Notes under the pieces: generated by a model
What the model saw: the letters and a program-made list of their open reading frames with translations, nothing else
What the model was told of the DNA's origin: nothing
The model's database searches: none
Position numbers and translations under genes: made by a program
Source of the DNA: a virus
Reading direction: 5' to 3' (one strand)
IMG/VR virus record: IMGVR_UViG_3300038456_000063
Coordinates: 1 to 52,923 of that record
Length of the DNA: 52,923 nt
Shown here: positions 17,918-35,742 of the stretch, in pieces
Position numbering within the stretch: the first letter of the stretch is position 1
Layout: each line of letters starts with the position of its first letter

Positions 17918-17937
17918 CCACACAACATTTCAAAGGG

Positions 17938-19316: not shown

Positions 19317-19319
19317 GGC

Positions 19320-20096: not shown

Positions 20097-20115
20097 GTTG
20101 ATTCTCCAAAGGAAA

Positions 20116-20182
20116 GGCGGTGAGAGGGCTCGAACCTCCGCGCAGGATTTGTGACCTTGCTCTACCGCTGAGCTACACCGCT
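20116..20182 (-). tRNA. tRNA-like sequence, short anticodon region
   Basis: The 67-nt element has an acceptor stem with six pairs (positions 2-7), a normal D arm (GCTC ... GAGC) and a T arm with GGAGG-TTCGAGC-CCTCT. Only 19 nt lie between the D and T arms instead of about 22-23, so no good five-pair anticodon stem with a seven-base loop forms. The anticodon cannot be assigned; it may be a degenerate or non-decoding tRNA. Confidence 0.5.
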
Positions 20183-20190
20183 AAATAAGC

Positions 20191-20262
20191 TGCCGAGGTA
20201 GGACTTGAACCTACGACCACGCGATTAACAGTCGCGCGCTCTACCAACTGAGCTACTCGGCA
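20191..20262 (-). tRNA. tRNA-Asn (GTT)
   Basis: 72 nt with all arms canonical: acceptor TGCCGAG/CTCGGCA, D arm GCTC/GAGC, anticodon stem CGCGA/TCGCG with loop CTGTTAA (anticodon GTT), variable TGGTC, and T arm GTAGG-TTCAAGT-CCTAC. CCA is not encoded. It is adjacent to another tRNA-like sequence. Confidence 0.95.
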
Positions 20263-20286
20263 ATTGCCGGCCGCAGCCGGCTGGTT

Positions 20287-20693
20287 TCAGATGTCCACCG
20301 GAAAGCCTCGGGTGGGGTCGATGCCGTCGTCCCGGTCGTGACCTTCCTCGTCGTCGAGTTCGGTGTCGTCCAGGTCGTCTTCCTCTTCCTCGTCCAGGTC
20401 GAGATCGTCGCAGCCCGTGCAGCCATAGCAACCGGGGTCCATGCCAAGCATGTCGATCAACTCGTCCGCGAAACGCGGGTTCGTAAAGACCGTCTCGATG
20501 GTCCAGTCATGCGTGATCTTGGTCAGATCGTCGATCTGGGCCGCCATGTCCAGGGCGAGTTCTTCCGTGTCGAAGATGGCCACGGCAATGCTTAGGCCAT
20601 CCTCGTTATAGGAGAGGAGCCAGGTGCCGGGGACATCGCCTTCGGTGATACCGCTGAAGACGATGCCGGTGAGATTCTTGGGTGTCCTACTCA

Positions 20694-20694
<1 letters not shown>
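20287..20694 (-). CDS. Hypothetical protein with acidic C-terminus
   Basis: 135 aa. The N-terminal ~80 residues are a compact domain (GTWLLSYNEDGLSIAVAIFDTEELALDMAAQI). GCYGCTGCDD in the middle gives three closely spaced Cys, followed by a strongly acidic stretch (Asp/Glu-rich) and GFPVDI at the end. It overlaps the stop of the all-acidic protein upstream. No family recognised. Confidence 0.65.
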
Positions 20695-20951
<257 letters not shown>

Positions 20952-20999
20952 GGTAGTGCTCCACGAAAAGGACAGGGACAGAACAGGGTAAGTAAAAAG

Positions 21000-21078
21000 C
21001 GGCACCGGCAGGTCTCGAACCTGCAACATTCCTTCCGCCAAACAGGCGGTCGCCACGAGCCACTTGTGCGTCGGTGCC
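21000..21078 (-). tRNA. tRNA-like sequence, irregular D and anticodon arms
   Basis: The acceptor stem (GGCACCG/CGGTGCC) and T arm (GCAGG-TTCGAGA-CCTGC) are perfect. The middle folds as CCGCC/GGCGG, leaving only a five-base loop; read with a seven-base loop, the anticodon would be GTT with T instead of a purine at position 37. The D arm pairs poorly and the variable region is long. Possibly a non-canonical or non-decoding tRNA. Confidence 0.45.
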
Positions 21079-21083
21079 AGTCG

Positions 21084-21374
21084 CTAGCTGTTGGGCTTGC
21101 GGCTTTTCGCCTTCATTTCGGCAATCACAGTTTCGAGTGTCTGGTACTCGCCGTTGGCCATTGCCTCGGCACAGCGGCGGTGCATTTCAGCGTTGTACTT
21201 GACCACCACGTCGTCCTTGGCGAACTCGAAACCAAGCCACTGCCAGGACACGGAAAAGTGCAACTCGTGCCCGGCGTCCCAGAACCACTGTCGCTTCAAG
21301 AGCGGGATGAAGGTCTGGACCAAAAAGAGCGAGTTGGCCAGGAAAGTAATCAAGGGTACAAGCAGTCGAAGCAT
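21084..21374 (-). CDS. Membrane-anchored hypothetical protein, 96 aa
   Basis: Begins with a hydrophobic segment (LLVPLITFLANSLFLVQTFIPLL), a signal anchor, followed by a soluble part with WFWDAGHELHFSVSWQWLGFEF and a C-terminal helical part (MHRRCAEAMANGEYQTLETVIAEMKAK). It lies between the tRNA-like gene and the Pro-rich secreted protein. No family recognised. Confidence 0.6.
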   Translation of the reverse strand: MLRLLVPLITFLANSLFLVQTFIPLLKRQWFWDAGHELHFSVSWQWLGFEFAKDDVVVKYNAEMHRRCAEAMANGEYQTLETVIAEMKAKSRKPNS

Positions 21375-21386
21375 GACAGTCTTTCT

Positions 21387-21977
21387 TTAACGATGGTGTC
21401 CACCGCCGCCGCCATGTCCACCGCCGCCCGGATTGGGCCGAGGGGCGGGTGACGGCCGGGGAGTGGGTGACGGCCGGGGAGCGGGTGACGGCCGGGGAGC
21501 GGGTGACGGCCGGGGAGTGGGTGACGGCCGGGGAGCGGGTGACGGCCGGGGAGCGGGTTGCGGGCGTGGCTCGGGCCGAGGTTCAGGACGGGGTTCAGGG
21601 CGTGGGCCGGGGACGAAGCCGCCGTGCCCGCCGTGTCCACGGCCGTCGCCAATGATGATGGGAACACCAATGATGATGGGGTCCACAATAATGATCGGGT
21701 CTCGGATAACGACGCCTCGCGGCCAGAGGATGCGGCTGCCATCGGGGACCAGGAAGTTGTTGCCGCTCGGGGTGTGGATGATGGAGCCTCGGGGCGGGTA
21801 GATCGGAAACTGAACATACACGCCAGGGGCCATGAGGCACGAGCCATCGGGGATCGGCAGAACGGTGCGGTCCATCAACTGAAGCTGCGAACCGTAGGGG
21901 ATGGTGAAGGTCGTGGCCTTCGCCGTGGTGGCGAAGAGCATCAAGACCAGGGCAAGAAGCATTGCAAGGTATTTCAT
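21387..21977 (-). CDS. Exported Pro/Gly-rich repeat protein
   Basis: 196 aa. A signal peptide (MKYLAMLLALVLMLFATTAKA) is followed by a domain with IPYGSQLQLMDRTVLPIPDGS and IYPPRGSIIHTPSGNNFLVPDGSRILWPRG, then repeats of the PRPSPAPRPSPT type and a Gly/His-rich end (GGGGHGGGGGHHR). The IPDGS/PRGS/TPxGxxFxxPxGS pattern recurs in the next gene upstream, so the two are tandem paralogues. The six-residue repeat is an 18-bp tandem repeat in DNA. Function unknown; probably periplasmic or cell-surface. Confidence 0.75.
   Translation of the reverse strand: MKYLAMLLALVLMLFATTAKATTFTIPYGSQLQLMDRTVLPIPDGSCLMAPGVYVQFPIYPPRGSIIHTPSGNNFLVPDGSRILWPRGVVIRDPIIIVDPIIIGVPIIIGDGRGHGGHGGFVPGPRPEPRPEPRPEPRPQPAPRPSPAPRPSPTPRPSPAPRPSPAPRPSPTPRPSPAPRPNPGGGGHGGGGGHHR
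21451..21558. repeat. 18-bp tandem repeat, six units
   Basis: Six consecutive copies of GACGGCCGGGGAG[T/C]GGGT, differing only at one T/C position in the order T,C,C,T,C,C. That order suggests duplication of a three-unit block. It encodes the PRPSP[A/T]P repeat of the exported protein. Units sit in a coding frame, so this is a minisatellite, not a CRISPR array. Confidence 0.95.
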
Positions 21978-21990
21978 GGAAACCTCCAAA

Positions 21991-22425
21991 TTAACGGTGA
22001 TGGCCGCCACGGTGGCCGCCGGAATGGTTGGGGACCGAACGGGCCGGTCTCGGATAGCGCGGATCAGTGGGCACGTAGATCGGGTCAACAATAATCGGCG
22101 TGGTAATCGTCGGTGGGCTCACGGGCTCAACGATGATCGGTGGTGGTATGACTCCAGGCACCTGCCGCGCGGGGAGCAGGAGCCGCGAGCCGTAGATGAT
22201 CTGGTAGACGACGTGCTTGGGCGTGACGATCTTGGAGCCTCGCGGCGGGAAGTCGGGAAACTCCGGTATCAGGCCGGTCTCCGGCTCCGGGGTCTCAAGG
22301 ATCGAGCCCTCGGGTATGCGGTACGTTACCCCACCCGGCGTCACGACCCGCGTGCCGCTTGGGATAGCGAACGTCTCGGCCGTTGCCGTCGAGACGAGCA
22401 GGAGTAGGGCAACGAGATACTTCAT
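21991..22425 (-). CDS. Exported protein, paralogue of downstream gene
   Basis: 144 aa. Signal peptide MKYLVALLLLVSTATAETF, then FAIPSGTRVVTPGGVTYRIPEGSILE, a PPRGSKIVTPKHVVYQIIYGSRLLLP block, a Pro/Ile-rich linker (VIPPPIIVEPVSPPTITTPIIV) and a His/Gly-rich end. Repeated G-S/G-T turns spaced ~12 residues apart suggest a small beta-helix-like or hairpin array. Shared pattern with the 21387-21977 protein shows duplication. Function unknown. Confidence 0.7.
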   Translation of the reverse strand: MKYLVALLLLVSTATAETFAIPSGTRVVTPGGVTYRIPEGSILETPEPETGLIPEFPDFPPRGSKIVTPKHVVYQIIYGSRLLLPARQVPGVIPPPIIVEPVSPPTITTPIIVDPIYVPTDPRYPRPARSVPNHSGGHRGGHHR

Positions 22426-22793
22426 GGCTTGGGAATGTCCAAGGTCGAGAAGGCCAGAACACGCATGTCTTCCAGGTGTCGCTCGATGGCAGCCTGCGTG
22501 CCGGCGACGGCCTTGGCCTGGGACGGCCGCAGTCCGCACGTCCAGAGTCGGTCCATCAACTCCTGGGCCTCCTCGTGATGCAGGCGGAAGGTCGGCTCAA
22601 CACACGTACCCTCGGGAACCTCGAAGTCGAATTCCAGGTGCTTGCATACGCCGCGTCGTTCCCCGTTCTTGTGCCGGGTGACGACGAAGCTGATATATTC
22701 GTCGCACCACGGGTTGGCATAGGCCACGGCAGCGGTGAAGTCGTAACAATCGTAACCAGCTAAATTACGCAAGATCGTCGTGTCCTTTCGCAT
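22422..22793 (-). CDS. Hypothetical protein, 123 aa
   Basis: Begins MRKDTTILRNLAGYDCYDFTAAVAY and has conserved-looking Trp/Cys positions (NPWCDEYISFVVTRHKNGERRGVCKHLEFDF), followed by a helical C-terminus (RLHHEEAQELMDRLWTCGLRPSQA). The start at 22793 lies within the 3' end of the upstream gene. No family recognised. Confidence 0.65.
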   Translation of the reverse strand: MRKDTTILRNLAGYDCYDFTAAVAYANPWCDEYISFVVTRHKNGERRGVCKHLEFDFEVPEGTCVEPTFRLHHEEAQELMDRLWTCGLRPSQAKAVAGTQAAIERHLEDMRVLAFSTLDIPKP

Positions 22794-23052
22794 AGAACTC
22801 AGCCAGCGTGTGCAGCACATCGTCGTCCTGCATTTCCACCAGCTTGAAGATACGCAGGGGTTTGTGCTCGCCGAACATGACTTCCGTGTAGCGATACGTC
22901 GGGCTCGGCAGCGGACACGACGGTGTTATTGGCTTGTCGAATCCAAAGGCATTGAAGGGCCTCGGCACCTTCATCAGCAACACGGTCAGGCCATCATCAA
23001 TGGTCTTGACCATGCCGTCGCCAGGACCGCCGACCAGTAGAACTTGCTTCAT
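22765..23052 (-). CDS. Hypothetical protein, 95 aa
   Basis: Begins MKQVLLVGGPGDGMVKTIDDGL, then SCPLPSPTYRYTEVMFGEHKPLRIFKL and a C-terminal AEFYAKGHDDLA. The GGPGDG is near a strand end but does not form a Walker A (no GKT). The layout suggests a compact alpha/beta protein. It overlaps the upstream gene by 4 nt. Confidence 0.65.
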   Translation of the reverse strand: MKQVLLVGGPGDGMVKTIDDGLTVLLMKVPRPFNAFGFDKPITPSCPLPSPTYRYTEVMFGEHKPLRIFKLVEMQDDDVLHTLAEFYAKGHDDLA

Positions 23053-23222
23053 TTCTTCTCCAAACGCAGGTCAAGAACCAGGACATCGCCGGGCTCGCAG
23101 TTTAAGTCTTCGAGAATCTTGAGCCGGATCACGCCGCCGAGCTTTACGGTACAGTCCGCTTCCACTGCCTCGGGCGCGCCGCCCTTCGGCAGATGGAAGA
23201 TATTGATGCGGACTTCAGGCAT
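23049..23222 (-). CDS. Hypothetical protein, 57 aa
   Basis: Begins MPEVRINIFHLPKGGAPEAVEAD and contains CTVKLGGVIRLKILEDLNCEPGDVLVLDLRLEKK, a clear beta-rich pattern. ATG at 23222 overlaps the end of the upstream gene. No family recognised. Confidence 0.6.
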   Translation of the reverse strand: MPEVRINIFHLPKGGAPEAVEADCTVKLGGVIRLKILEDLNCEPGDVLVLDLRLEKK

Positions 23223-23409
23223 AGGCTTGCAGGAAGCCAATGAGTCCCTGCGGATCGAAGCGGAGTTCGTCGTCGGTGGCGAGCGTAATCGTTCCCGGCG
23301 GGAAAGCGATACGCGCGATGCCGTCTCTCCGCACGATGCTCTGGGTGGTCAGATCGACACTGGCGATCCGTTCGCCGTCTCGCCAGTGCTCAATGGTGTA
23401 GCGGTTCAT
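23215..23409 (-). CDS. Hypothetical protein, 64 aa
   Basis: Begins MNRYTIEHWRDGERIASVDLTTQSI and continues ARIAFPPGTITLATDDELRFDPQGL; a short beta-rich protein. Overlaps the downstream start by 8 nt. No family recognised. Confidence 0.6.
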   Translation of the reverse strand: MNRYTIEHWRDGERIASVDLTTQSIVRRDGIARIAFPPGTITLATDDELRFDPQGLIGFLQAYA

Positions 23410-23416
23410 GGTGCCC

Positions 23417-23746
23417 TCACATGAAATAGTGAATACACCACGCCATGCCGGTGGCCATCAGGACGCCGACGATCCCTTGCAGGACCGTGGCGGTTCCCTT
23501 CAATCGCTCCAGGCCCAGCATGACCGAGATTGTCATGGTTAGTCCGATGGCACCCAGGATGCCGAGGCCGGGGAAGCCCAGCGGCACAACGAACCACAAC
23601 CAGAGCTTCGTGATGCACCAGCCGCGAATGGCAATCAGCAGGACGATGTACAGAACGCCCATAAGGCTGAGGGTGCCGAGGCCCGTGGCCTTGATGATGG
23701 CATCCATATTCGGATCGGGTTTCTTTGCAGACGTTGCGGTGTTCAT
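23417..23746 (-). CDS. Multi-pass membrane protein, 109 aa
   Basis: After a polar N-terminus (MNTATSAKKPDPNMDAIIK) there are about three hydrophobic segments: GTLSLMGVLYIVLLIAI, WLWFVVPLGFPGLGILGAIGL and VLQGIVGVLMATGMAW. It lies before another small membrane gene, forming a short membrane-protein pair. No family recognised. Confidence 0.65.
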   Translation of the reverse strand: MNTATSAKKPDPNMDAIIKATGLGTLSLMGVLYIVLLIAIRGWCITKLWLWFVVPLGFPGLGILGAIGLTMTISVMLGLERLKGTATVLQGIVGVLMATGMAWCIHYFM

Positions 23747-23763
23747 ACGTTTCTCGCGGGTTG

Positions 23764-23892
23764 TTAGTAGAGGAAGTGATGGATGTTGTGGACGGCGTGC
23801 CCGGCGTTCATCCGGGCAAAAACCGCCACGAGCGTAGCTATGGCCGCCGCAAGGCTGAGCAGGGCGGCAAGGACGGGGAGAGCGTCTTTCAT
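23764..23892 (-). CDS. Single-pass membrane peptide, 42 aa
   Basis: Begins MKDALPVLAALLSLAAAIATL and ends ARMNAGHAVHNIHHFLY; one hydrophobic helix and a His-rich end. The ATG overlaps the stop of the upstream phosphoesterase (ATGA), so it is co-translated. Function unknown. Confidence 0.55.
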   Translation of the reverse strand: MKDALPVLAALLSLAAAIATLVAVFARMNAGHAVHNIHHFLY

Positions 23893-25205
23893 CGCAGTGG
23901 GCCGATCTCCCGCCCGCCGTCGATCAGGTATCGCTTCGGGCCGTTGGCCTCGCTCTCGTGACGCAGCTTGACGTTCATGCGCCAGGTGATGCCGTGCTTG
24001 GCATTGACGCCGTGAATCCATTGGGCCGGCTCACGGTAGCCGGAGAACGAGTTGTAGGCGTAGGAGTCGGTGCCGACCCAGGCCCCGTTGACCAGTAGCT
24101 CGCCGTCGATGTCCGACAACGTACTGGCCGTATGGTGGTGGCCGACGCAGAAATAGCGGCAGCGCTGCGCACCGCCCGCCGCACCCAGGGCGATCAGGCC
24201 CTTTTGCTTGCGGGTCATGGCGTACCAGGGGATACCGCCGTTGGAGCGAACGTCGTCACCGTGGGCGATGTTGAAGCCGACGCCGTTGATATTGATGTTC
24301 GCGGACCACGAATCGGGAATCGTGAAGCTGACGTTGGTAAGCGAGCGGCTGTGCAGCCGCGCGACTTCCGCCACGAGGTAATCCCAGTTGTCCTGTGCGC
24401 CGAGGTAGTCCTTCTTCGGTGTGCGGCGGCCGTGGTTGCCCGCCAGATAGAGCACGTTGACTTGCTCGAAATGGGCCGCCAAGTCGCGGAACATGAGCGA
24501 GTGAAGCTGGCCGATGGCGAGGCAATTGCGGAACTGGTTGCGATAGTATGACCGCTCGCACGCCTTATGGATTTCGCCGCTGGTGAAGTCGCCATAGGCG
24601 AGTACCCACAGCACGGGGAACTTGAACTTGGGCGAAAGCGTGTCGTGGCACCACTCGACGACCGTATCGACGTACCGCTCGGCACGGGCGCAAGAAATGG
24701 GGAAGTTGTAGTTTTCCAGGCCGCCGACCTCATCCGGCCGCACGACCTGATCGTGGTGGCCGTCGCTCAAGTGCATCACGCAATGCTCGGAAATCTCGGC
24801 CTTGCGGCGGAAGTCCATTGCAGCGGGGAGGGCCGCGAAGGGCTGGATGCGCTGTTCCATTTCGCCGGTGATGGCCTTGAACAACCCGCCGATCTTGGCA
24901 CCCGCCTTGACCTTCTGCCGCTCGCGGTTGCGCTCTTCGGTCAGGTGGACGATCTCGGCTTCCAACTCCAAGACCTTCTTGTCGGTCGGGTCGTAATCCT
25001 CGATAGGCTTGTGCTGGCCGCCAGCCTGCTTCGGGCAGGGCTCCTGGCCTTCCGGCCAGGGCACGTCCTTATGGACACGGCCCGTGGCGATGTCGCTCAC
25101 GATGGAGCGGCTGACCTTGTGTTTCTTGGCGATCTGCGGTTGCGGGACTTTGGCCGCAATCTGCGCCTTGATAGCGGCGACTTTCTTATCGGATAGTTTC
25201 GTCAT
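23889..25205 (-). CDS. Metallophosphoesterase with N-terminal helix-turn-helix
   Basis: 438 aa. Residues ~5-45 look like a resolvase-type helix-turn-helix (KVPQPQIAKKHKVSRSIVSDIATG), then a coiled segment (KVLELEAEIVHLTEERNRERQKV), then a calcineurin-like domain with MHLSDGHHD, LAYGDFTSGE, YLAGNHGR, IAHGDD and VGHHHTAS. The phosphoesterase motifs are present though the first two deviate slightly from DxH and GDxxD. Fusion of a DNA-binding-type domain to a phosphoesterase suggests a nucleic-acid substrate. ATG at 25205. Confidence 0.75.
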   Translation of the reverse strand: MTKLSDKKVAAIKAQIAAKVPQPQIAKKHKVSRSIVSDIATGRVHKDVPWPEGQEPCPKQAGGQHKPIEDYDPTDKKVLELEAEIVHLTEERNRERQKVKAGAKIGGLFKAITGEMEQRIQPFAALPAAMDFRRKAEISEHCVMHLSDGHHDQVVRPDEVGGLENYNFPISCARAERYVDTVVEWCHDTLSPKFKFPVLWVLAYGDFTSGEIHKACERSYYRNQFRNCLAIGQLHSLMFRDLAAHFEQVNVLYLAGNHGRRTPKKDYLGAQDNWDYLVAEVARLHSRSLTNVSFTIPDSWSANININGVGFNIAHGDDVRSNGGIPWYAMTRKQKGLIALGAAGGAQRCRYFCVGHHHTASTLSDIDGELLVNGAWVGTDSYAYNSFSGYREPAQWIHGVNAKHGITWRMNVKLRHESEANGPKRYLIDGGREIGPLR

Positions 25206-25215
25206 GGTGCTTTCT

Positions 25216-25374
25216 TCAATCAAAGTCCCTTGCGTCAAGGGGCTTGTCTTTGGTCTCTGGGTTCTGCTTAGCCTTACGCCGATTACGCCGGTGAAGGGCC
25301 TTCTTGAAGTCGCGCTTCCGATTGGGCGCGTCCACGATGCGGCTGACTCTCTTCCAAGCGCGAGGCCGTCCCAT
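25216..25374 (-). CDS. Small basic protein, 52 aa
   Basis: Begins MGRPRAWKRVSRIVDAPNRK and is rich in Arg and Lys (KKALHRRNRRKAKQNPETKDK). The ATG is at 25374. Likely to bind nucleic acid by charge. No family recognised. Confidence 0.5.
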   Translation of the reverse strand: MGRPRAWKRVSRIVDAPNRKRDFKKALHRRNRRKAKQNPETKDKPLDARDFD

Positions 25375-25441
25375 GTGAGCCTCCGAATCAATGGGAACAG
25401 CGGGGCGGGAATTACCCCGGCCCGGCGGATTGCGGGAACCG

Positions 25442-26431
25442 TCAGATGGCCGTAAAGTACGGCCGGGCGGACTTGTTGATGATGGCTTGAGCAGCCTTCG
25501 TGTTGGCCTTGATGCAGGCGCGGATCGCGCCGAGGATGCTGCCACCCTGCGGCCATTGCTCCGTGCCGTCGCACATCTTGGGAATCGCCGTCACTTTGAC
25601 CGTGGGGTCCAGTGCCCACTCGACGCCCATCGTCTTGGCCCAGGGAAGGATTCGACGCAGAGGAACGATGAAGTTCAGGCCGGCACCGCCGCCACGGGTG
25701 AGCATTCCCATGTACTTGCCGTCTTCCAGGAACATGCCGCCGCCCGACGAGCCGGGGTAGGCCATTGTGGAAGTCTGGTCGAACATCTTGCCTGTCTTAA
25801 TCAGGTCCACGTCGGTCTGCGAAATGACGCCGTAGCTTACGGAGTTGTAGAGCCCTTGCGTGCAGCCAACATGGATCAGCTTGGTGCCGATCTCTTGCAG
25901 ATCAGCGGTGAGATCGAACGTCGCGCTGACCGTGGCGGGCCGGAAGTTGTCTTGCAGGATTTCCAGTAGGGCAAGGTCTTCGCCCTCTTCGGGATCGCTG
26001 TAGGCAATGACTTTGGCCTGAACATCCGACGAGCCGATCGCGCGGCCCTTGTAGCGGAATTCCTGGTGGATCGTCACGTTCTTAAAAGTCTTGTCGCTTT
26101 TCATCTGTTCGCGGACAACGTGCCCGGCGGTCCAGACGTAGGAGCGGGTCACGTCGCCGACTTGGCGTGTCACCAGAGTACCGCTGCCGCTGCCGTGGTC
26201 CACTTTCACCAGGACGCTCACGGTTTGCAGATCGGCAAGGATTTTCGCGGGCGTCGGGGCGGCCGGAGCAACCGGGGCAACCGGGGCGGCGACCGGAGGC
26301 GCGGGAATGGCCGGAACTTCTGTGGCGACTATGGCCGGTGGTTTGGGGACCACGATGGCATTGGGCTTGGTGGCAAATGCCGCGCCGGCAAGCAGCAGAA
26401 CGGCACACAGGGAAAGGATCACGGACTTCAT
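25442..26431 (-). CDS. Secreted trypsin-like serine protease
   Basis: 329 aa. Signal peptide (MKSVILSLCAVLLLAGAAFA), then a Pro/Ala/Val-rich linker (~residues 28-62). The catalytic triad is readable: TAGHVV (H104), EDLALLEI (D152) and YPGSSGGGMF (S229 in GxSGG). The surrounding strands fit the trypsin fold of HtrA-type or phage-borne proteases, without a PDZ domain. It should act outside the cytoplasm. A C-terminal ~60-residue segment carries CDGTEQWPQGGS. Likely degrades host or phage envelope proteins; the target is unknown. Confidence 0.85.
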   Translation of the reverse strand: MKSVILSLCAVLLLAGAAFATKPNAIVVPKPPAIVATEVPAIPAPPVAAPVAPVAPAAPTPAKILADLQTVSVLVKVDHGSGSGTLVTRQVGDVTRSYVWTAGHVVREQMKSDKTFKNVTIHQEFRYKGRAIGSSDVQAKVIAYSDPEEGEDLALLEILQDNFRPATVSATFDLTADLQEIGTKLIHVGCTQGLYNSVSYGVISQTDVDLIKTGKMFDQTSTMAYPGSSGGGMFLEDGKYMGMLTRGGGAGLNFIVPLRRILPWAKTMGVEWALDPTVKVTAIPKMCDGTEQWPQGGSILGAIRACIKANTKAAQAIINKSARPYFTAI

Positions 26432-26465
26432 GTTGCAAGGCTCCAAATGCAAGGGGATACAGGTT

Positions 26466-26783
26466 TCAAACGCGAACGGTGTCAACTTGCTCGACTTCGA
26501 GCAGGCTGTCGTACTCGGGGACCAACCGACAAAGCAGGGCCTCGTGGAGAATGTCACTCAAGGTTTCGGCGTCACTCGACATGCTGCTCACATCAACGTG
26601 GACAACGTGATAGACACCCTCTTCATGCTCGCCGTTGTCGGGGAGCCTGACTTGGATTGCGTCCACCGTGTCCCAAGGGCGGCCTTGGAACGCGCGGGAC
26701 AGGCAGTTGATAATGACCTCGCGGGTCGGGATCGCTTTCCAGTTGCCTTCGTACAGCGTGAATTTGTAGGTGGCCTGGATCAT
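26466..26783 (-). CDS. Hypothetical protein, 105 aa
   Basis: Begins MIQATYKFTLYEGNWKAIPTREVI and continues DAIQVRLPDNGEHEEGVYHVVHVDVSSM, ending LVPEYDSLLEVEQVDTVRV. It looks like a compact alpha/beta protein. ATG overlaps the SNF2 stop by 4 nt. No family recognised. Confidence 0.65.
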   Translation of the reverse strand: MIQATYKFTLYEGNWKAIPTREVIINCLSRAFQGRPWDTVDAIQVRLPDNGEHEEGVYHVVHVDVSSMSSDAETLSDILHEALLCRLVPEYDSLLEVEQVDTVRV

Positions 26784-28747
26784 GTTCGGTACTCCTCGAA
26801 TTCACCTTCCTGGGTAGCGGCGTCGTTCCAGTCAACGTCCTGCATCAACTCGCCCATCGTCATCAATTCCAACTTGCGGTTGGCACGGATCACGTCGAGC
26901 ACACGCTTGTCGCTGGGTAGGTGGACCAGATCGACGATGGTGCAACCCAGGTTCTCGTCCATGCCCTTACGGTGGATTCGATCCTCCGACTGGACCCGGT
27001 ACTCCGGCTTCCAGGAATTGCTCCAATAGACCGCCATGCGGGATTCCACCAGGGTCAAGGACATACCGCCCGACTCGGGGTTGGCAACGAAGGCCACGCG
27101 GGGATGGGCCTCAATGTTGGCCCAGTAGTCCAGCGGCTCTTCCTCCACGGCCGTATCGTCGTGCGGCAGGACTTGGAAGTTGCCCTGGTCGCAACGGACC
27201 ACGGACCACTTCTCCCGCTTCATCAGGTTCACGACGCGATCCACCGACCCGGTGAAGCCGGCGAAGACCACGATGCGGCCCGTTTCCTCGCATTCGTCCA
27301 GGAGCATCCGCAGGGCGGCGTCCTTGGGACAGGCGACCTCGCGGGTGATGCGGACGATCTTGTGGACTTCCATCGAACCGCCGCAGACCGGGCAGGGTGC
27401 CTTCTCTTCGATCAGGCGCGCGAGTACCTCGTCCGGCAGCAGGTCGGTGCCGGGGTAGCAGCGGTCGCCGTCTTCCGGGTCGCGCCAACTGGCCACCGTG
27501 CCGTCCGTGCAGTGCGTGCATTTGGTCATGCCCTGCTTCTCGTCACGGTACTGGAAGCCGTCGCTCAACTCCCGCAGGAGGGTCATGCCGGTGACGGCGT
27601 TTGGGGCCGCTTCCACAAGGGCCTTGGCCACACGGAGGATGCTGGCGCTGGGCTTGCAGACGATCTGGCGATAGCGTTTCTCGGGCAGGTTCAGACAGTC
27701 TTTCTTGTGCTTGATAATCACCAAGCCCTTGAGCCGCTCGTGGAGGTAGGCGACCTCGTTCTTGCTGGGCACGAAGGGATGATACTCGGCCGGATCGGTG
27801 AGGCCGTCGAGTTCATGCGGCCCCTCTTCGCGCGTCTCGCCGCACTGGTTGCATTTGTTCTCGTCGTCGCGCCAGCCGGTGCGCTTCTTGAAGGAAGCCG
27901 TCTCGTACTGCTGATCGACCATGAAAGCCATGCGGGCTTCCATCGCCCTGGCACTGCCCTCGCGGAGGAAACCGGGCCATGCAATCTCGCACTGACTCCA
28001 CCAGTCGATGGGCGTCTTGGGCGACGGCGTACCGGACATCTCAATCACGTACCCGCCTTCCACGCCCCACTTCTCGCGGATCATATCGGCCAGCCGTTGA
28101 GCGGCCTTCGATCGCTGGCTGGTGGAATTCTTCAAGCGGCTGGATTCATCGCAGATCAGGCCGTGCGGCGGTGGCACGCCCTCGGGCCACTCGTCAATCA
28201 CGCGGACCAGACCTTCGTAGGTGTGGTACTGGATGTCGAATTGCTCGGCGGAGAACTTCCACTTGCGGAATTCGCGCTTGATGTTGGGCAGGCTCGTCTT
28301 GGGGCCGATCCAGAACCAATCATGGACGCCAGATCGCTCAATCAATTCCTGGGCCGAGAGGGTCTTGCCCGTGCCCATTTCCGCCGCCCAGAGTTGGAAG
28401 TGGTAGGTCAGGCCAGCGTCGGTCAAGTCCTTCTGGTGCGGCATGAGGGGCCGCTGGTACTCGTGCCGGATGATGTCGCGGTCGAACCAGGCGAACATAT
28501 CCTCGCCGCACATGAGCGCAAGCTGGAAATTGTTCCGCTGGCAATCCTCGACCGACCATTGCTTGATCGGGTTCTCTTCCTCATAGCCGTGCCACCGCGA
28601 GCCCTTCATCGCCTTGATTTCGTCCTTCAGGCTGAAGGGCGACTTGACAAAGAAGATGCGGCCGTCACGGCGGTCGATCTCAGCCGGACTGAGGACGGTG
28701 CGACCGCTGCTGGTGGTGGTTCTTAGCTTGATCTTTTCAATGGCCAT
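26780..28747 (-). CDS. SNF2-family helicase with zinc-binding inserts
   Basis: 655 aa. Walker A AEMGTGKTLSA, Walker B LICDESSRLKN, motif III MSGTPSPKTP, and motif VI SEDRIHRKGM mark SF2/SNF2-type ATPases that translocate on dsDNA. Between the helicase halves are Cys pairs: NKCNQCG, KCTHC and CPVCGG, likely one or two zinc knuckles. It probably remodels DNA-protein complexes, or takes part in recombination or repair, in phage replication. The ATG at 28747 overlaps the methyltransferase stop. Confidence 0.85.
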   Translation of the reverse strand: MAIEKIKLRTTTSSGRTVLSPAEIDRRDGRIFFVKSPFSLKDEIKAMKGSRWHGYEEENPIKQWSVEDCQRNNFQLALMCGEDMFAWFDRDIIRHEYQRPLMPHQKDLTDAGLTYHFQLWAAEMGTGKTLSAQELIERSGVHDWFWIGPKTSLPNIKREFRKWKFSAEQFDIQYHTYEGLVRVIDEWPEGVPPPHGLICDESSRLKNSTSQRSKAAQRLADMIREKWGVEGGYVIEMSGTPSPKTPIDWWSQCEIAWPGFLREGSARAMEARMAFMVDQQYETASFKKRTGWRDDENKCNQCGETREEGPHELDGLTDPAEYHPFVPSKNEVAYLHERLKGLVIIKHKKDCLNLPEKRYRQIVCKPSASILRVAKALVEAAPNAVTGMTLLRELSDGFQYRDEKQGMTKCTHCTDGTVASWRDPEDGDRCYPGTDLLPDEVLARLIEEKAPCPVCGGSMEVHKIVRITREVACPKDAALRMLLDECEETGRIVVFAGFTGSVDRVVNLMKREKWSVVRCDQGNFQVLPHDDTAVEEEPLDYWANIEAHPRVAFVANPESGGMSLTLVESRMAVYWSNSWKPEYRVQSEDRIHRKGMDENLGCTIVDLVHLPSDKRVLDVIRANRKLELMTMGELMQDVDWNDAATQEGEFEEYRT

Positions 28748-29976
28748 TATTTGCTCGGTTTCGTGAGTCGGGAGATTGCGATGTCGCAGTTGTGGGCGTC
28801 GAGTTCGACGCCGATGCAGTGTCGGGCCAGGCTTTGCGCGGCCAGGAGAGTCGAGCCGCTGCCGGCGAAGGGGTCGAGGATCACGCCGCCGTCTGGCGTG
28901 GAGAGCAACGTGAGCAGGTACTTCATCAGGGCCAGGGGCTTGACAGTGGGGTGGTCATTGCCCGACCCCTTTTCCTTCTTGGCGGCCTTGGCGCAGTAGA
29001 AGAAGCGCGAGGCCCCGCCGCTGTCGCCATAGCCCGTCAGGTCACTGCCGGCGCGGTTGGCGTCGGAGCCGTAGATGCCGCTCTCGCCGGACGTGCCCTT
29101 GCGTTTGCCGCTGGGTTTGCCGCTGGTGAGCGTGCCCGTCTGGTTGTCCAGTTGAGCCGCTGCTTCCTCGTCTAAGAGGAGATTGGCAGGCCAGCGGCCC
29201 TTGGTGGATTCGATGAATTGGGCACCGTTCTTCTCGGCCGTCCGCTTGATGCGGTTGCCTTGCTGGCCGTGGAAAGTCGTACCGTTGCGGTCGGCGTTGT
29301 ACTTGTAGCCGGGGTTCTCGCCGATGCGGCAGCCGTCGATATGGAAGCCAGCCACGCCCCAGTTCTCGGCGTTCTGGGCAATCGTGCCGTCCATCGGCTT
29401 CATGGCCAGGATGATCGGCTCCCAGGCCGGCTTCAGGGCTCCGGCCCAGCCGGTCCACGCCTTGGCCAACTCGGTGGCCGGGGCGGTAATCTCGACGGTC
29501 TTGATTCGCTCCTCAGCCGTGTGACCGCTGACGCCCTTGCCGTAGCTCACGCCGCCACTGTTGGCCGAGAGGGTGTAGCCGGGCAGGCCCATCTTGGTGC
29601 CAATGACCTTCCGCTCTGCCCCTTTGGCCTTGTCGATCATCTTGCCCACGTCGGCCGCCTTGGGAAAACCGCAGCCGTAAAGCCACATGAGCGTGTCGCG
29701 GATGTCCCAGCCGGCGTCTTCAATTGCGCAGGCCAGATGATGCCAGGTCCGCGTGCCGCCGAAGGCCAACATCAGGGCACCGGGCTTGCAAACCCGCAGA
29801 ATGGCCGCCCAATACTCCGGCCCAGGGACTTGGCGGTCCCATCCCCTTCCCATGAAGGAAAGGCCGTAGGGCGGATCAGTCACGACAAAATCGACCGACG
29901 ACTCGGGCAACGTGGGAAGCACGTCGCGCAGGTCGCCGTCGTAAAGCGCAATGCCATTTTCGTCGTGACGCTTCAA
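28747..29976 (-). CDS. DNA methyltransferase (N6A/N4C type), 409 aa
   Basis: Motif IV VTDPPYGLSFMGRGWD is near residue 35, the middle contains DTLMWLYGCGFPKA, and motif I DPFAGSGSTLLAA is near residue 375. This is the beta-class order, and it is longer than the first methylase because of a ~150-residue insert. The best start is the TTG at 29976 with AAAGG before it; no in-frame ATG is near. Copy 4 of the conserved element lies 66 nt upstream. Likely modifies phage DNA. Confidence 0.88.
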   Translation of the reverse strand: MKRHDENGIALYDGDLRDVLPTLPESSVDFVVTDPPYGLSFMGRGWDRQVPGPEYWAAILRVCKPGALMLAFGGTRTWHHLACAIEDAGWDIRDTLMWLYGCGFPKAADVGKMIDKAKGAERKVIGTKMGLPGYTLSANSGGVSYGKGVSGHTAEERIKTVEITAPATELAKAWTGWAGALKPAWEPIILAMKPMDGTIAQNAENWGVAGFHIDGCRIGENPGYKYNADRNGTTFHGQQGNRIKRTAEKNGAQFIESTKGRWPANLLLDEEAAAQLDNQTGTLTSGKPSGKRKGTSGESGIYGSDANRAGSDLTGYGDSGGASRFFYCAKAAKKEKGSGNDHPTVKPLALMKYLLTLLSTPDGGVILDPFAGSGSTLLAAQSLARHCIGVELDAHNCDIAISRLTKPSK

Positions 29977-30042
29977 GAGGATGCCTTTCGGAGATAGAGC
30001 GTTTACACACCCGGAGTCGGGCGTTGGTTCGTGGCTTCACTT

Positions 30043-30071
30043 AGAGAGTTGCAAAGCGTGAGAAACTGGTT
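30043..30071 (-). promoter_or_regulatory. Copy 4 of AACCAG-N11-TTGCAACTCTCT element
   Basis: Same blocks and 11-nt gap on the minus strand, immediately after the stop of the 173-aa gene and in a ~100-nt non-coding gap. It heads the methyltransferase-SNF2 string. A GTGTGTAAACGC site also lies in the leader (29999-30010). Confidence 0.65.
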
Positions 30072-30080
30072 GTGACGGTT

Positions 30081-30602
30081 TCACCGATTTCTCTTGTCCT
30101 CCAGGTAGAACGTCTGGTCCGAGGCGTTCCGGGCACGGAGGTCGGCCCACACGTTCAAGCCAGCCGTCTCGAAAAGGGAGTAGACCCGGTTGAAGCACTG
30201 CCGCACCGGCAACTCCACGGACGGATCGCTCCCCGCGCGAACGGCGTCTCGCCACTGCGCCAGGGTTCCGGTAATGACGGCGATCTGCACCGAACCTACG
30301 AGCGTGTCGGCGACGACAAAGGGCATCGTGGAGCATTGCAGAATGTCCAGCATGTCGCGGCTGTCGGCGGCGACGAGGATGCTGAAGCTGACGTGTACCA
30401 GGAGGCTGGGGAAGAGACCCACGGGACTCCTCTGGTCCCGTATCGCTGCCAAGCAACTGAGGAAGCGTTCGGCATCCGTCAAGTCGCGCGGGCTGGCGTC
30501 GGCCTTGGCGGACGGGCTGTAGCCCAGGGCCTCGAAACTCAGACCCAGGAAGGTCGTGAAGTCGATGCTGGGCTTGTTAATGAGTACGGCATCGGGCTTC
30601 AT
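30081..30602 (-). CDS. Hypothetical protein, possibly degenerate ThyX-like
   Basis: 173 aa. SPVGLFPSLLVHVSFSILVAADSRDMLD and GTLAQWRDAVRAGSDPSVELPVRQCFNRVYSLFE recall the layout of flavin-dependent thymidylate synthases (an HxxFxI strand and a Gx-W-R-D ... E-x-R helix). The RHR signature that makes ThyX active is not visible. The similarity is my impression and could be wrong. It ends right where copy 4 of the conserved element begins. Confidence 0.5.
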   Translation of the reverse strand: MKPDAVLINKPSIDFTTFLGLSFEALGYSPSAKADASPRDLTDAERFLSCLAAIRDQRSPVGLFPSLLVHVSFSILVAADSRDMLDILQCSTMPFVVADTLVGSVQIAVITGTLAQWRDAVRAGSDPSVELPVRQCFNRVYSLFETAGLNVWADLRARNASDQTFYLEDKRNR

Positions 30603-30617
30603 GGGAGTGACTTTGGG

Positions 30618-30812
30618 TTACTTGCGTTTGGATTCCAGCTTGTGGGCCAATTTGACCTGCCGTGTTACGCAGAGCAGGAGGTTGTTGATGATGGGCGCGA
30701 AGCGGAGCGTTTCGTCGCCGGCCTCCAAGACCAGGGCGTCGGTGGTGATGCGGAGGAGCGAGATCGTTTCGCGGGTACGCTTGATGGCCTTGCGGATTTG
30801 TTTCTTGGACAC
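30618..30812 (-). CDS. Small basic-start protein, 64 aa
   Basis: Starts at GTG 30812 (VSKKQIRKAIKRTRETISLL) with AAGG upstream, and continues ITTDALVLEAGDETLRFAPIINNLLL and a basic end. Probably a small helical protein. Precedes the ThyX-like gene by 15 nt. No family recognised. Confidence 0.55.
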   Translation of the reverse strand: MSKKQIRKAIKRTRETISLLRITTDALVLEAGDETLRFAPIINNLLLCVTRQVKLAHKLESKRK

Positions 30813-30845
30813 GGGACTGCCTTGAAAAGAAGTGGAAAGAAAAGG

Positions 30846-30950
30846 GACACAGCCGGGACTCGAACCCGGACGCATTGAAAGCTGACGAGACTTTAATGGT
30901 TAAAGGGTGTGCTCGTTCAGTCGAATGTTGCTGGCTTACAACACTGTGTC
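30846..30950 (-). ncRNA. tRNA-like RNA with long hairpin in place of anticodon arm
   Basis: The ends are tRNA-like: acceptor stem GACACAG/CTGTGTC (7 bp) and T arm CCGGG-TTCGAGT-CCCGG. A five-pair D-like stem (TGTTG/CAACA) follows the acceptor directly. The region where an anticodon arm should be forms a long rod: CATT/AATG, then CTG-(A)-ACGAG/CTCGTCAG, then CTTTAA/TTAAAG. At 105 nt it is longer than normal class II tRNA. I cannot identify an anticodon. It may be a tRNA with an insertion or a tRNA-like structure. Confidence 0.5.
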
Positions 30951-30959
30951 TGTGGTGCC

Positions 30960-30982
30960 CGCAGGTGAGCGCTTCACCTGCG
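30960..30982. other. Hairpin upstream of tRNA-like gene
   Basis: CGCAGGTGA / TCACCTGCG perfect 9-bp stem with a five-base loop, in the ~118-nt gap 30951-31068. There is no T-run, so it is not a clear terminator; it could be a processing signal or attenuator. I see no convincing gene in the rest of this gap. Confidence 0.4.
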
Positions 30983-31068
30983 GACGGAATGACCCGGCAA
31001 AGTGCGCAGAGAGGACCAGCAGGAGATCATCCTGCCCATGATGGTCGTCATGCGTGCCGAGGCGTTGA

Positions 31069-31809
31069 CTAGCGAGCGCGGGCCTTTTTGCCGGCGGGCT
31101 CTTTCACGACCTCGACGCCATCGCCCTTGCACTCGATGAAGGTCGTCATTTCCTTCTTGAGCCGCTGCATTGTCGGCATCTTGGTGAAGGGATTGCCGCA
31201 CTTGACCACGACGGGAACGTGCCAGGAGTAAGTGCCCTTCTCCACGAGCCGGCTCTTGAGCGTCAACGGCAAGGGGCCGTGCGCTACCAGGCCGTCCACG
31301 TCGTTGCCGGCCGCCTGCTGACGGGCGATGTCGGCCGTCGTCAAGGGCAGGAACGGGTAGAGCTTCTTGGCCTCGCTGCGGGTGCTCTTGCTGCCGCAGA
31401 AGAATTCGAGGAAACGGCCGGTGCCGCGCTCGATGACGAGGAAGCTGGGGCCGTACATGCAGTGCGATTCCTTTTCGAGCGACTGCGCGGCAATCCGCTT
31501 GAACTCGTCGGACTCGGGATCGTAGTTCACGATCACGGCGTCGGTGTCGGTCATGTCGATGGCCTTCGGGCGGCGGCCCAGCGGCAGAATGTCGATGGTG
31601 TCGCCCAGGTCGATGACCTCTTCACCCTCGGGAATGCCGTAGCAACCGGGGCGGACTTGCCCCTTGTTGATGGCCTTGCCCTTGGTGTAAAGCTGCAAGC
31701 GGCCGATGAACTCGGTGCTCTTGGCCAATTCGGCGAACTGATCGTCAGTGCCCAACTGGGTGGAAGGAAGCTGGTTGAAATCGACGGGGACCAGATTGTT
31801 TTCGGACAT
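31069..31809 (-). CDS. Hypothetical phage protein, 246 aa
   Basis: Begins MSENNLVPVDFNQLPSTQLG. Contains FIGRLQLYTKGKAINKGQVRPGCYGIPE, IDLGDTIDILPLGRRPKAIDM, and SCMYGPSFLVIERGTGRFLEFF-type beta strands, ending in basic EPAGKKARAR. It looks like a conserved phage-type structured protein. The size, strand-rich make-up and place near ParB and primase would suit a single-stranded DNA-binding or recombination role, but I cannot assign one. ATG at 31809. Confidence 0.6.
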   Translation of the reverse strand: MSENNLVPVDFNQLPSTQLGTDDQFAELAKSTEFIGRLQLYTKGKAINKGQVRPGCYGIPEGEEVIDLGDTIDILPLGRRPKAIDMTDTDAVIVNYDPESDEFKRIAAQSLEKESHCMYGPSFLVIERGTGRFLEFFCGSKSTRSEAKKLYPFLPLTTADIARQQAAGNDVDGLVAHGPLPLTLKSRLVEKGTYSWHVPVVVKCGNPFTKMPTMQRLKKEMTTFIECKGDGVEVVKEPAGKKARAR

Positions 31810-31879
31810 GGTGCAAAACCTCAGAGTTGAAGATTGGAAGAGAAACTTAAAGACAAACGGCAAACAGGGATCAAGCAGG

Positions 31880-31905
31880 GCGGGTGGCCGGTGCGGGTGG
31901 CCGGT
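31880..31905. repeat. 13-bp direct repeat in intergenic gap
   Basis: GCGGGTGGCCGGT occurs twice in tandem, followed by a partial copy (GCGGGT), in the ~140-nt non-coding gap 31810-31952 upstream of the 246-aa gene. No clear promoter hexamers are seen there. Confidence 0.8.
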
Positions 31906-31952
31906 GCGGGTTACATGATTAGGTCTCCGTGGCAATAAAGTGTGCGGATGTT

Positions 31953-32840
31953 TTAGGGTTCGGGGCGATCTGTGAAGTGCTTTCGCATTCGTTCGGCCTG
32001 CTTCCTGCGCTGCTCGTCCAGGCTCTTGGCATCCAGGTGCATGACCCAATCCAAGCAGGCGTTCCAACCGTCCACGGCCGTTCGCGCCTTGCCGACAGCC
32101 AAGAGGGTCGGACCCTCTTGGGGTCGCTCCTTCTCGGTCAACAGGTCACGCAGATTGCGAAGGTGCGCGATGGGCGTGAACTCGGCCGCAAAGAGTACAT
32201 CCAACTTCCCCTGCCGCGCCGCCTCCCGTTGCTGCTTGATGAAGACAGACACGGTGGCTTTGAATTCGGGGGTGGGTGCCGTCTTGGCAAAGTCCACAAA
32301 GCGATCTTGCTGGTTGTAAATGACACGGGACAACACGTAGGCCGACATGAGGGGAATCTCCCCACGGTCCACAGCCTTCTGGATGGCGGGTTGCAGCCGG
32401 AGTAATCCAAGCTGCTCGCCGATCCAGCCGTGACTATTGTGGACCATCCTTTGCAGCCGGGCATGAGACATGCCGGGGTGGTCGTCCAGTATCTTCTTCA
32501 GCCGTCGTGCAAAATCGCACTTCTTCGTCGTGGGTCGGATTGCATTGGCTTCAATCTGCGAGGCCAAAACCATTTCGTCCGTCATGCCGTGCCTTATCAG
32601 GCAGGGCACAGGAGTTAGCGCCAGTTCCTCGAAAGCCGTGTAGCGGTACATCCCGTCTACGACTTCAAACTTCCCAGGAATGCGCGGCGATGGCCGCACG
32701 CAGATCGAGTTCAACGGCCCGTTGGCCGCTAACGAATCCCGCAACTCCATGTACTCCAGCGAATCCTTTTCCACGATCCTGAGCAGCAGGTGGGTTTCGT
32801 GGATGTCGCAGAGCGGAATGTCACGGCTTTCGATCTTCAC
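31953..32840 (-). CDS. ParB-like nuclease-domain protein
   Basis: 295 aa from a GTG at 32840 with GGAG before it. PLCDIHETHLLLR is followed by DSLAANGPLNSICVRPSPRIPGKFEVVDGMYRYTAFEEL (the GxxRxxA box as DGMYRYTA) and SQIEANAIRPTTKKCDFARRL (ENxxR-like box). A helical region with a helix-turn-helix-like GMSHARLQRMVHNSHGWIGEQL follows. It is the first gene read leftward from the palindrome at 32863-32959. It is likely a DNA-binding regulator or a replication/partition protein, perhaps autoregulating the divergent region. Confidence 0.75.
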   Translation of the reverse strand: MKIESRDIPLCDIHETHLLLRIVEKDSLEYMELRDSLAANGPLNSICVRPSPRIPGKFEVVDGMYRYTAFEELALTPVPCLIRHGMTDEMVLASQIEANAIRPTTKKCDFARRLKKILDDHPGMSHARLQRMVHNSHGWIGEQLGLLRLQPAIQKAVDRGEIPLMSAYVLSRVIYNQQDRFVDFAKTAPTPEFKATVSVFIKQQREAARQGKLDVLFAAEFTPIAHLRNLRDLLTEKERPQEGPTLLAVGKARTAVDGWNACLDWVMHLDAKSLDEQRRKQAERMRKHFTDRPEP

Positions 32841-32862
32841 AGTGGGCTCCGAGATCAACAAC

Positions 32863-32959
32863 AACACCTACAGGAGATGGTAAAAACGAGCTTTTTTTTC
32901 AGAAAACATGGCAAAGTTTTTGAAAAAAAGGACCGTTTTTACCATCTCCTATAGGTGTT
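32863..32959. promoter_or_regulatory. 97-bp AT-rich inverted repeat, divergent control region
   Basis: A 26-nt arm (AACACCTACAGGAGATGG, then TAAAAACG) at 32863-32888 is mirrored at 32934-32959 with one mismatch. Inside it, T-runs and A-runs continue the symmetry (32889-32907 with 32916-32933), leaving a centre of about eight bases. The ParB-like gene is read leftward and the primase rightward from it, so both would have nearly identical upstream sequence (outward CCATCTCCT[A/G]TAGGTGTT). It may hold two back-to-back promoters with a shared operator, or a replication origin. Confidence 0.8.
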
Positions 32960-32999
32960 AAGTGCCAGTCTTTCCCGCGCCGGAAACGGCAAAGCGAGA

Positions 33000-33011
33000 G
33001 CGTGTAAACGC
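33000..33011 (+). promoter_or_regulatory. GCGTGTAAACGC palindromic site
   Basis: GCGT-GTAA-ACGC has 4-bp mirrored arms and lies 20 nt before the primase start. The same 12-mer recurs inside the primase gene (33765-33776) and in the ParB-like gene (18498-18509, opposite strand). Near matches lie at 61-72, 12329-12340 and 29999-30010. A candidate protein-binding site. Confidence 0.35.
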
Positions 33012-33030
33012 ACCCTATCAAGGAAGCGAC

Positions 33031-35742
33031 ATGAGAGTCACCCAAGCCATCCAAGTCTTCCTCAATGCCCGCCAACTGCCGGCCAACGCCGATCTGGTTG
33101 CGCGCTGGTCGTCAGCGCACGAAACCCAGGTCAACGTCGCCGCCGGCAATGGTGAACCCGTGGAGGGCAAGCGGACGACCTACAGCGATGGCATCAACGA
33201 GTGGTGGAATATAAGGCTGCCCAAGAACGCCAACAGCGACCCGTCCTGGAACGACTACGAACTGAAGTTCCCCTTTGAAATGCACGCCGAGGGCATCGGC
33301 TGCACGGGCTGGGACTGGGCCGCGCAGCGCTCGCGCTGGGTGGCCTTCGACTTTGACAGTCTTACGACGCACGCCAAGGGCGTGGGCGTCACGGACGAGG
33401 AATTGGAGCGGGTCAAGCTGGCGGCCGAGGCCCTGCCCTACGTGGAGACCCGGTTGAGTACCAGCGGCAGCGGCATCCACCTTTACGTCTACTTCGACGC
33501 CCAGGGCGTGCCCACGGCCAACCACACCGAACATGCCGCCCTGGCCCGTTGCGTGCTAGGTATGATGTCAAGCGACACGGGCTTCGACTTTGCCAGCCAG
33601 ATCGACTGCTGCGGCGGTGTGATGTGGATTTGGCACCGCAAAATGACGGCCGAGAACCACGGTCTCTCGCTTGTCAAGCCGGCCACCAAGGAACTCTCCG
33701 TGGCCGATCTGCCCACCAACTGGCGTGACCATATTGAGGTCGTGACCAAGAAGCGGAGCAAGGTGCGTGTAAACGCGGTCGAGGACGACAAACTCGATTC
33801 CTTCGAGCGTTTGGCTTCCAGCCGCAAGATCATCCCGCTGGACGAGAGCCACAAGCTACAGATCGAGTCCCTGATGCGGACTAATTTCACGACCTTGTGG
33901 ATCGCCGACCACCATCTGTTGCAAACACACACCTGCGCCCTGGCCCGTCTGACGGAAGAGCAGGCCGGGGAGTTGGGGCTGGTTGGCATCTTCAAGACGA
34001 TCTCCCAGGGCAACAATCCGGGCTCGCCCAATTGCTTCCTCTTTCCCTTGCCCAACGGTGCCTGGAAAGTCTACCGCTTTTCCCAGGGCATCAACGAGGC
34101 CGACACTTGGAGCCAGGACGGCGAGGGGTGGACCACCTGCTACTTCAACCGCACGCCCGATCTGGCCGCCGCCTCCAAGGCCCACGGCGGCCTGGAAGAC
34201 CCCGACAAGGAAGGGCAATACGTATTCAACGAGGCGGCCCTGGCCATCAAAGCCGCCGAGGCCCTCGGCCAGAAGATCGAACTCATGGACGAAATGATGG
34301 ACCGCGAGGCCCGCCTGAAGACCAGCAAGTCGGGCCGGCTGGCCGTGGAGATCGAGAAGCAGAAGGACGACAACCCCAAGAAGATGCCCGGCTGGATCGA
34401 CAAGAAGGGCAAGTGGGTCCGCATCTTTGAAGTCAAGACCGAGAGCACGAAAACCGACGAACTCGGCTTTTCGGAACACGACCATTTGATGCGCGAGTTG
34501 GTGGCCGCCTCCAAGGAAAGCGCCGGGTGGGTGTTGTTCAAGGACGGCGAATGGATACGGGAGCCACCCGGCAACATCAAGATGCTCCTGCAAAGCAAGG
34601 GGCTCGGCAAGCCGGAGGCCGAGGCCATGATGGGCGAGGCCATCGGCAAGAGTTGGACACTGGTGAATCTACCTTTCAAAGAAGAATACCCTGGCGGGAG
34701 ACAGTGGAATATGGATGCAGCGCAGTTGAAGTACGAACCGGCCATCCTTGGCGACGATGAAGAGCCCACGCATCCCCACTGGGACAAGGTGCTCAATCAT
34801 ATCGGCCAAGACCTGAACGCCGGCCTCCGCGACTCGCCGTGGGCGCAAAAGGCCGACATCAAGACCGGCGCTCAATATCTTCTGGCGTGGGTCTCCTGCA
34901 TGATTAAGTACCCGTTCTCGCCGCTGCCTTACCTCTTCCTCTATGGGCCGGAAAACAGCGGCAAGTCGATCTTCCACGAGGCCATCGCCCTGCTAATGAC
35001 CAAGGGCTGCGTGCCCGCCGATCGGGCCTTGACCAGTACCGGCGACTTCAACGGCGAGTTGGCCAGTTGCATCCTGGCTATCGTCGAAGAAAAGGACATT
35101 TCCAAGGCCAAGGGGGCGTTGAACAAGATCAAGGAATGGGTCACGGCCCGAATGCTTTCCATCCGCAAAATGCGGTGCGACAGCTACTCGCAGCCGAACA
35201 CGACGCACTGGGTCCAGTGCGCCAACCGCCGCGAGAACTGCCCTGTCTTTCCCGGCGACACCCGCATCACCGTTATCCATGTGCCGGACCTTCTGCCGGA
35301 CCAGGAAATCCCCAAGGAAAAGCTGATCGAGAAGCTCACGGAAGAGGCCGCTCATTTCATGTACTCCCTGATGAACATGGAATTGCCGGAGCCCTCCGGC
35401 CGTTTGCGGCTGCCCATTGTAATGACCGACAGCAAGGCGCGGAGCGAGGAAGAGAACCGCAACTCGCTGGAAGAATTCGTCGCCGACTGCTGCTACGAGG
35501 CCCCTGGGGTGTTGACCCCCTTCAAGGACTTCTTCGACAAGTTCTACGAGTCGCTGACCGTGAACGAGAAGGGCGACTGGTCCAAGCAGCGGGTTATAAA
35601 GGGCATCCCCTCGCGCTTCCCCACGGGGACGCACAGCAACAACAAAAAGTGCATCGCTAATCTCTCTCTGGAAGAAGTCACCATCGCCCCCGGCACCAAA
35701 CCCCTTGTCTTCGCGGGCGACAAGTTCGTTGTAAAGGAATAG
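33031..35742 (+). CDS. Primase-polymerase / SF3 helicase
   Basis: 903 aa. The N-terminal archaeo-eukaryotic primase-like domain has VAFDFDS (D107, D109), STSGSGIHLYVYF (~144-155) and GGVMWIWHRK. The C-terminal SF3 helicase has GPENSGKSIFHEA (Walker A, ~639-651), CILAIVEEKDISKAKGAL (Walker B-like) and HWVQCANRRENCPVF (motif C-like). It would prime and unwind phage DNA. I chose the ATG at 33031, with AAGGAAGCG before it; the open frame extends upstream but those 23 residues overlap the control region. It heads the rightward string. Confidence 0.88.
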   Translation: MRVTQAIQVFLNARQLPANADLVARWSSAHETQVNVAAGNGEPVEGKRTTYSDGINEWWNIRLPKNANSDPSWNDYELKFPFEMHAEGIGCTGWDWAAQRSRWVAFDFDSLTTHAKGVGVTDEELERVKLAAEALPYVETRLSTSGSGIHLYVYFDAQGVPTANHTEHAALARCVLGMMSSDTGFDFASQIDCCGGVMWIWHRKMTAENHGLSLVKPATKELSVADLPTNWRDHIEVVTKKRSKVRVNAVEDDKLDSFERLASSRKIIPLDESHKLQIESLMRTNFTTLWIADHHLLQTHTCALARLTEEQAGELGLVGIFKTISQGNNPGSPNCFLFPLPNGAWKVYRFSQGINEADTWSQDGEGWTTCYFNRTPDLAAASKAHGGLEDPDKEGQYVFNEAALAIKAAEALGQKIELMDEMMDREARLKTSKSGRLAVEIEKQKDDNPKKMPGWIDKKGKWVRIFEVKTESTKTDELGFSEHDHLMRELVAASKESAGWVLFKDGEWIREPPGNIKMLLQSKGLGKPEAEAMMGEAIGKSWTLVNLPFKEEYPGGRQWNMDAAQLKYEPAILGDDEEPTHPHWDKVLNHIGQDLNAGLRDSPWAQKADIKTGAQYLLAWVSCMIKYPFSPLPYLFLYGPENSGKSIFHEAIALLMTKGCVPADRALTSTGDFNGELASCILAIVEEKDISKAKGALNKIKEWVTARMLSIRKMRCDSYSQPNTTHWVQCANRRENCPVFPGDTRITVIHVPDLLPDQEIPKEKLIEKLTEEAAHFMYSLMNMELPEPSGRLRLPIVMTDSKARSEEENRNSLEEFVADCCYEAPGVLTPFKDFFDKFYESLTVNEKGDWSKQRVIKGIPSRFPTGTHSNNKKCIANLSLEEVTIAPGTKPLVFAGDKFVVKE

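Follow-up and report, generated by a model that had tools for sequence, protein, structure and literature searches.

The DNA analysed here, positions 1 to 52,923 of IMG/VR record IMGVR_UViG_3300038456_000063 (the window, to which all position numbers refer), carries two divergent gene blocks. The leftward block is headed by a ParB-like gene and extends, without a change of strand, as far as genes for a polymerase and a sigma factor; the rightward block begins with a DUF5906 primase gene. Most of the gap between the two head genes is taken up by a single palindrome:

31953–32840, minus strand: ParB-like gene heading the leftward block (ParB_N, phrog_4715)
32863–32959, no strand: imperfect palindrome of 97 bp, read here as two promoter copies set head-to-head (inverted-repeat search of the window)
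33031–35742, plus strand: primase/helicase-like gene heading the rightward block (PF19263 DUF5906, phrog_1156)

The palindrome arms (32863–32905 and 32917–32959) span 43 nt each with 88% complementarity, and the centre between them is non-palindromic. With a score of 28, compared to 14 for the runner-up in the 52.9-kb window and at most 8–10 for shuffled intergenic DNA, the repeat is without equal in the window. The first-pass annotation had placed an inverted repeat at exactly this position between the divergent blocks and had described 26-nt arms with one mismatch, which correspond to the outer stem; the centre, then put at about eight bases, measures 11 nt.

No isolated phage matched the window at the nucleotide level, and the window primase matched those of isolated phages at only about 23–27%, over part of its length. 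Primase searches did return many related contigs, with Planctomycetota MAG contigs as the closest bacterial records. These relatives are contigs of unknown completeness, with genes called by a simple codon-usage script. In most of them, ParB and primase genes are divergent with a long palindrome in between, whose arms are near-perfect inside one phage and different from phage to phage. The arm sequence had been proposed as something to look for in related phages: the paired copies are indeed kept, but the sequence itself is not, and as an exact pattern it had no match in viral contigs. Arm-to-arm distance varied from 30 to 390 bp across relatives. Given this range and a sequence that differs in each phage, a hairpin is not required. 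Indeed, several loci apparently lack one, their arms being exact inverted copies of 16–29 nt that usually lie 190–390 bp apart, which argues against the hairpin as the conserved unit. Some distant or incomplete loci showed no clear arm pair. Individual loci carry further peculiarities, e.g. two copies of a 37-nt palindromic unit upstream of the primase (L107), open frames inserted between palindrome and primase that look HNH endonuclease-like by eye (L005, L018), or one stop codon inside the translated primase stretch (L005:6001-8661).

Position-by-position identity between copies within a genome revealed two conserved blocks separated by a spacer at background level. Agreement was 81–92% over positions –32 to –26 (–26 alone, 65%) and 76–100% over –16 to –1, compared to a far lower 27–51% over –25 to –19. 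In the window, these blocks map as follows:

32921–32928, plus strand: block A (–33 to –26) of the putative primase-side promoter, TGAAAAAA (from per-position identity between copies)
32938–32953, plus strand: block B (–16 to –1) of the putative primase-side promoter, TTTACCATCTCCTATA, copies within a genome being 76–100% identical; predicted start at 32954
32894–32901, minus strand: block A of the putative ParB-side promoter (from per-position identity between copies)
32869–32884, minus strand: block B of the putative ParB-side promoter; predicted start at 32868, leftward

Block A is of the type xTGAAAA/TTGGAAA, while block B is contiguous, phage-specific and ends in TA. The element is asymmetric, and every copy faces its gene at promoter distance. 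In the leaders of the packaging operon (see below), the ribosome-binding site comes directly after the downstream edge of block B, which suits a transcription start just past this block. Since the two arms carry one and the same promoter-like element, these data agree with the earlier suggestion of near-identical start sequences for the two outward transcripts. A host sigma-70 promoter, in turn, was sought and not found in the palindrome region, where both spacing and block B depart from the sigma-70 consensus, and we rejected this reading.

A search of whole contigs for the arm sequence yielded one more good copy, immediately ahead of a shared gene of ~190 aa, the first of a packaging/capsid operon. 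In G009, this gene is followed by those for terminase large subunit, portal, scaffold and major head protein. Scored over the 24 positions of the two blocks, in large contigs holding the first packaging-operon gene, the third copy reached 21–24 of 24 in nine relatives (G001, G002, G003, G005, G006, G008, G009, G010 and G013); no other site exceeded 18 matching positions, and shuffled patterns did not go beyond 19. G004 showed only partial likeness to the element at this place, and the most distant relatives (G011, G012 and G015) kept the paired arms with no third copy upstream of the orthologous gene. As the window stops before the packaging operon, the third copy of this phage is expected beyond its end and is unseen here.

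In one relative (G003; 106 kb), ParB and primase genes are not divergent and the palindrome is absent. Its contig nevertheless contains exactly three co-directional copies of the element, oriented towards their genes, before ParB, primase and packaging operon, which suggests that the palindrome is a by-product of setting two copies head to head. On the basis of this genome and of the arms lying 190–390 bp apart elsewhere, we dropped the view that a hairpin or cruciform is what is conserved. It also splits the proposal of a symmetric promoter-operator made from the window alone: the promoter part fits the data, whereas a symmetric operator does not agree with a unit that lacks symmetry, stands as a single copy ahead of the packaging genes and is present three times without a palindrome in G003.

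A candidate reader of these elements is encoded in the leftward operon:

13117–13788, minus strand: phage sigma factor, the probable reader of the promoters (phrog_351; sigma folds in the PDB)

The window gene matched phrog_351 with an E-value of 2.3e-10, and the sigma gene was detected in 18 of 20 contigs. By eye, the alignment contains region 2-like and region 4-like parts. A Pfam search with the window copy found no sigma family; at the same gene in G008, Sigma70_r4 scored above cut-off. The predicted structure (mean pLDDT 80) found mostly sigma factors as best PDB fold matches, with whole-chain TM-scores of only 0.3–0.4, perhaps because the orientation of the two sigma domains is uncertain. 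Some relatives have a second sigma-like gene: next to the conserved one, G002, G003 and G004 show an additional match to sigma70 region 4. ECF-type (group 4) factors are small two-domain sigma proteins whose promoters carry an upstream GAA-type block. The phage system resembles them in its small two-domain sigma and in a GAA-type upstream block that, in some members, lies 16–17 bp from a GTC-like stretch; block B, however, is longer and phage-specific here.

In a blind scan of 53 ortholog groups for partial correlation with promoter similarity, average relatedness removed, the sigma family ranked first (0.596), a rank that chance would give in about 2% of cases; 11–14 genomes entered the comparison. 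Alignment identities gave partial correlations of 0.609 (11 genomes) and 0.556 (14 genomes), with a Mantel p of 0.001, both values referring to the same protein. The runner-up was an exonuclease gene of the primase operon (0.444), and genes near the primase also correlated with promoter similarity. Judged from their sequences, promoter and sigma factor seem to have evolved in step within this group of uncultivated phages.

From the existence and location of the copies, their build of two blocks, the conservation in relatives and the finding that sigma tracks promoter sequence best among the 53 families, all read directly from sequence, we infer promoter identity, start sites and recognition by sigma. 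Most probably, then, the palindrome is a back-to-back promoter pair at which host RNA polymerase is guided by the sigma factor that the phage encodes. In each half, block A would be followed by a free spacer and block B, with transcription initiating at the G right after block B. The left copy would drive the ParB-headed operon, in which polymerase and sigma are also encoded, the right copy the primase operon, and the third, past the contig end, the packaging/capsid operon. With sigma encoded in the left operon, positive feedback may arise, and the overlap of the promoter pair could make the two polymerases mutually exclusive. Speaking against this model, the sigma operon would itself depend on sigma, and a scan of the minus strand from 13500 to 33400 revealed no sigma-70-type site.

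Other readers of the element were considered. T7-type promoters are contiguous blocks ending in TA, with a start at GG and a phage-specific sequence, and the contiguous, phage-specific block B with its TA end and a predicted GG start next to it would be compatible with three promoters for a T7-like single-subunit RNA polymerase rather than for sigma. A separate upstream block A and a free spacer are typical of sigma promoters instead, and it is sigma that tracks the promoter best, which renders such a polymerase quite unlikely. PF00940 matched in 0 of 20 contigs, a weak absence given that the control genomes were likewise without match. Alternatively, the element might be an activator or repressor site that sets a three-operon regulon, with the true promoters beside it, as a long contiguous conserved block and the presence of ParB-like proteins in the same genome, one with a recognised HTH domain, could suggest. 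Yet the block is asymmetric, always gene-oriented, at promoter distance and, in packaging leaders, ends just before the ribosome-binding site; moreover, with a rank of 36 of 53, the second ParB-like family shows no tracking of the element. We therefore regard a regulator site as improbable.

The remaining alternatives concern the palindrome itself. That it is an origin with an AT-rich core had been raised in the first-pass annotation. A replication origin working through a cruciform or strand opening at this core draws on the adjoining primase gene and on a locus without ParB neighbour (L028), where eight GCGCTTCC copies form an iteron-like array about 100–280 bp upstream of the primase. Against it, arms lie up to 390 bp apart or are present without a palindrome, the promoter-like element also precedes the packaging operon, some relatives lack the AT-rich core, and third-codon-position skew in same-strand genes, albeit confounded by early/late expression, shifts against the leading-strand G/T rule and not as expected for a bidirectional origin. 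We thus found no support for an origin and consider it unlikely as the explanation of the palindrome, though one could exist there alongside the promoters. Still less credible is a structured hairpin in one of the two leader RNAs: on the plus strand, mismatches within stems are A-C rather than G-U at a ratio of 10 to 1, as a minus-strand RNA would favour, but a single recurrent position may account for over half of this asymmetry, the arms can be up to 390 bp apart, single copies exist elsewhere, and all Rfam matches were sub-threshold and miRNA-shaped. N15-type hairpin telomeres are long palindromes with an inner mismatched zone. The present palindrome shares both traits; its centre, in contrast, is non-palindromic, and the protelomerase family PF16684 matched in 0 of 20 contigs while matching one genome of the control set, so that we dismissed a telomere. 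Within that control set, Synechococcus elongatus matches the ResT-TelK catalytic family.

Phage sigma factors with dedicated promoters, as favoured here, are of a known kind, for which our literature searches found only phiEco32-type precedents. Phages phiEco32 and 7-11 encode sigma-related factors and have few promoter copies per genome, which serve structural genes and a functional cluster, their gene clusters being divergent (PMC4331800). The present phages share the sigma-related factor, few promoter copies, promoters for structural genes and for a functional cluster, and divergent clusters. In addition, the phiEco32 consensus TAATGTATA (PMC4331800) is similar to the 3′ part of block B of certain relatives, e.g. 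TATAATGTA in G018. The comparison covers promoters and layout. The present phages differ in having one element type, placed once per operon before three operons, a separate upstream block, the palindromic head-to-head arrangement and strong sequence differences between related phages.

New would be the lineage, the unusually compact three-promoter layout and the apparent coevolution. As a tentative view, a large uncultivated phage lineage, probably infecting Planctomycetota, may run its replication and capsid operons through one three-promoter sigma regulon, whose specificity diversifies fast enough to leave related phages with mutually different sigma–promoter pairs and whose overlapping pair might act as an exclusive ParB/primase switch. 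The head-to-head promoters would explain a striking palindrome without origin or hairpin and suggest that master promoters of uncultivated phages can be found with no more than a genome sequence. As relatives differ in their sigma factor and each has three promoters to match, they would also offer a natural data set on how sigma reads promoters, and possibly a source of sigma–promoter pairs without cross-reaction.

The primase leader and the second ParB-like gene share a further short motif:

33000–33011, plus strand: 12-bp near-palindrome GCGTGTAAACGC, conserved in the primase leader, a possible operator
18167–19228: second ParB-like gene (ParB_N and HTH_ParB domains), carrying one copy of the 12-bp motif

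Among 52 close relatives, 28 have the 12-bp near-palindrome (GCGTnTAnACGC) in the leader of their primase gene, where shuffling predicts none. Further copies in the window lie at 33765 and 18497, with near copies at 61 and 29999, and the motif is possibly an operator or a ParB-type site.
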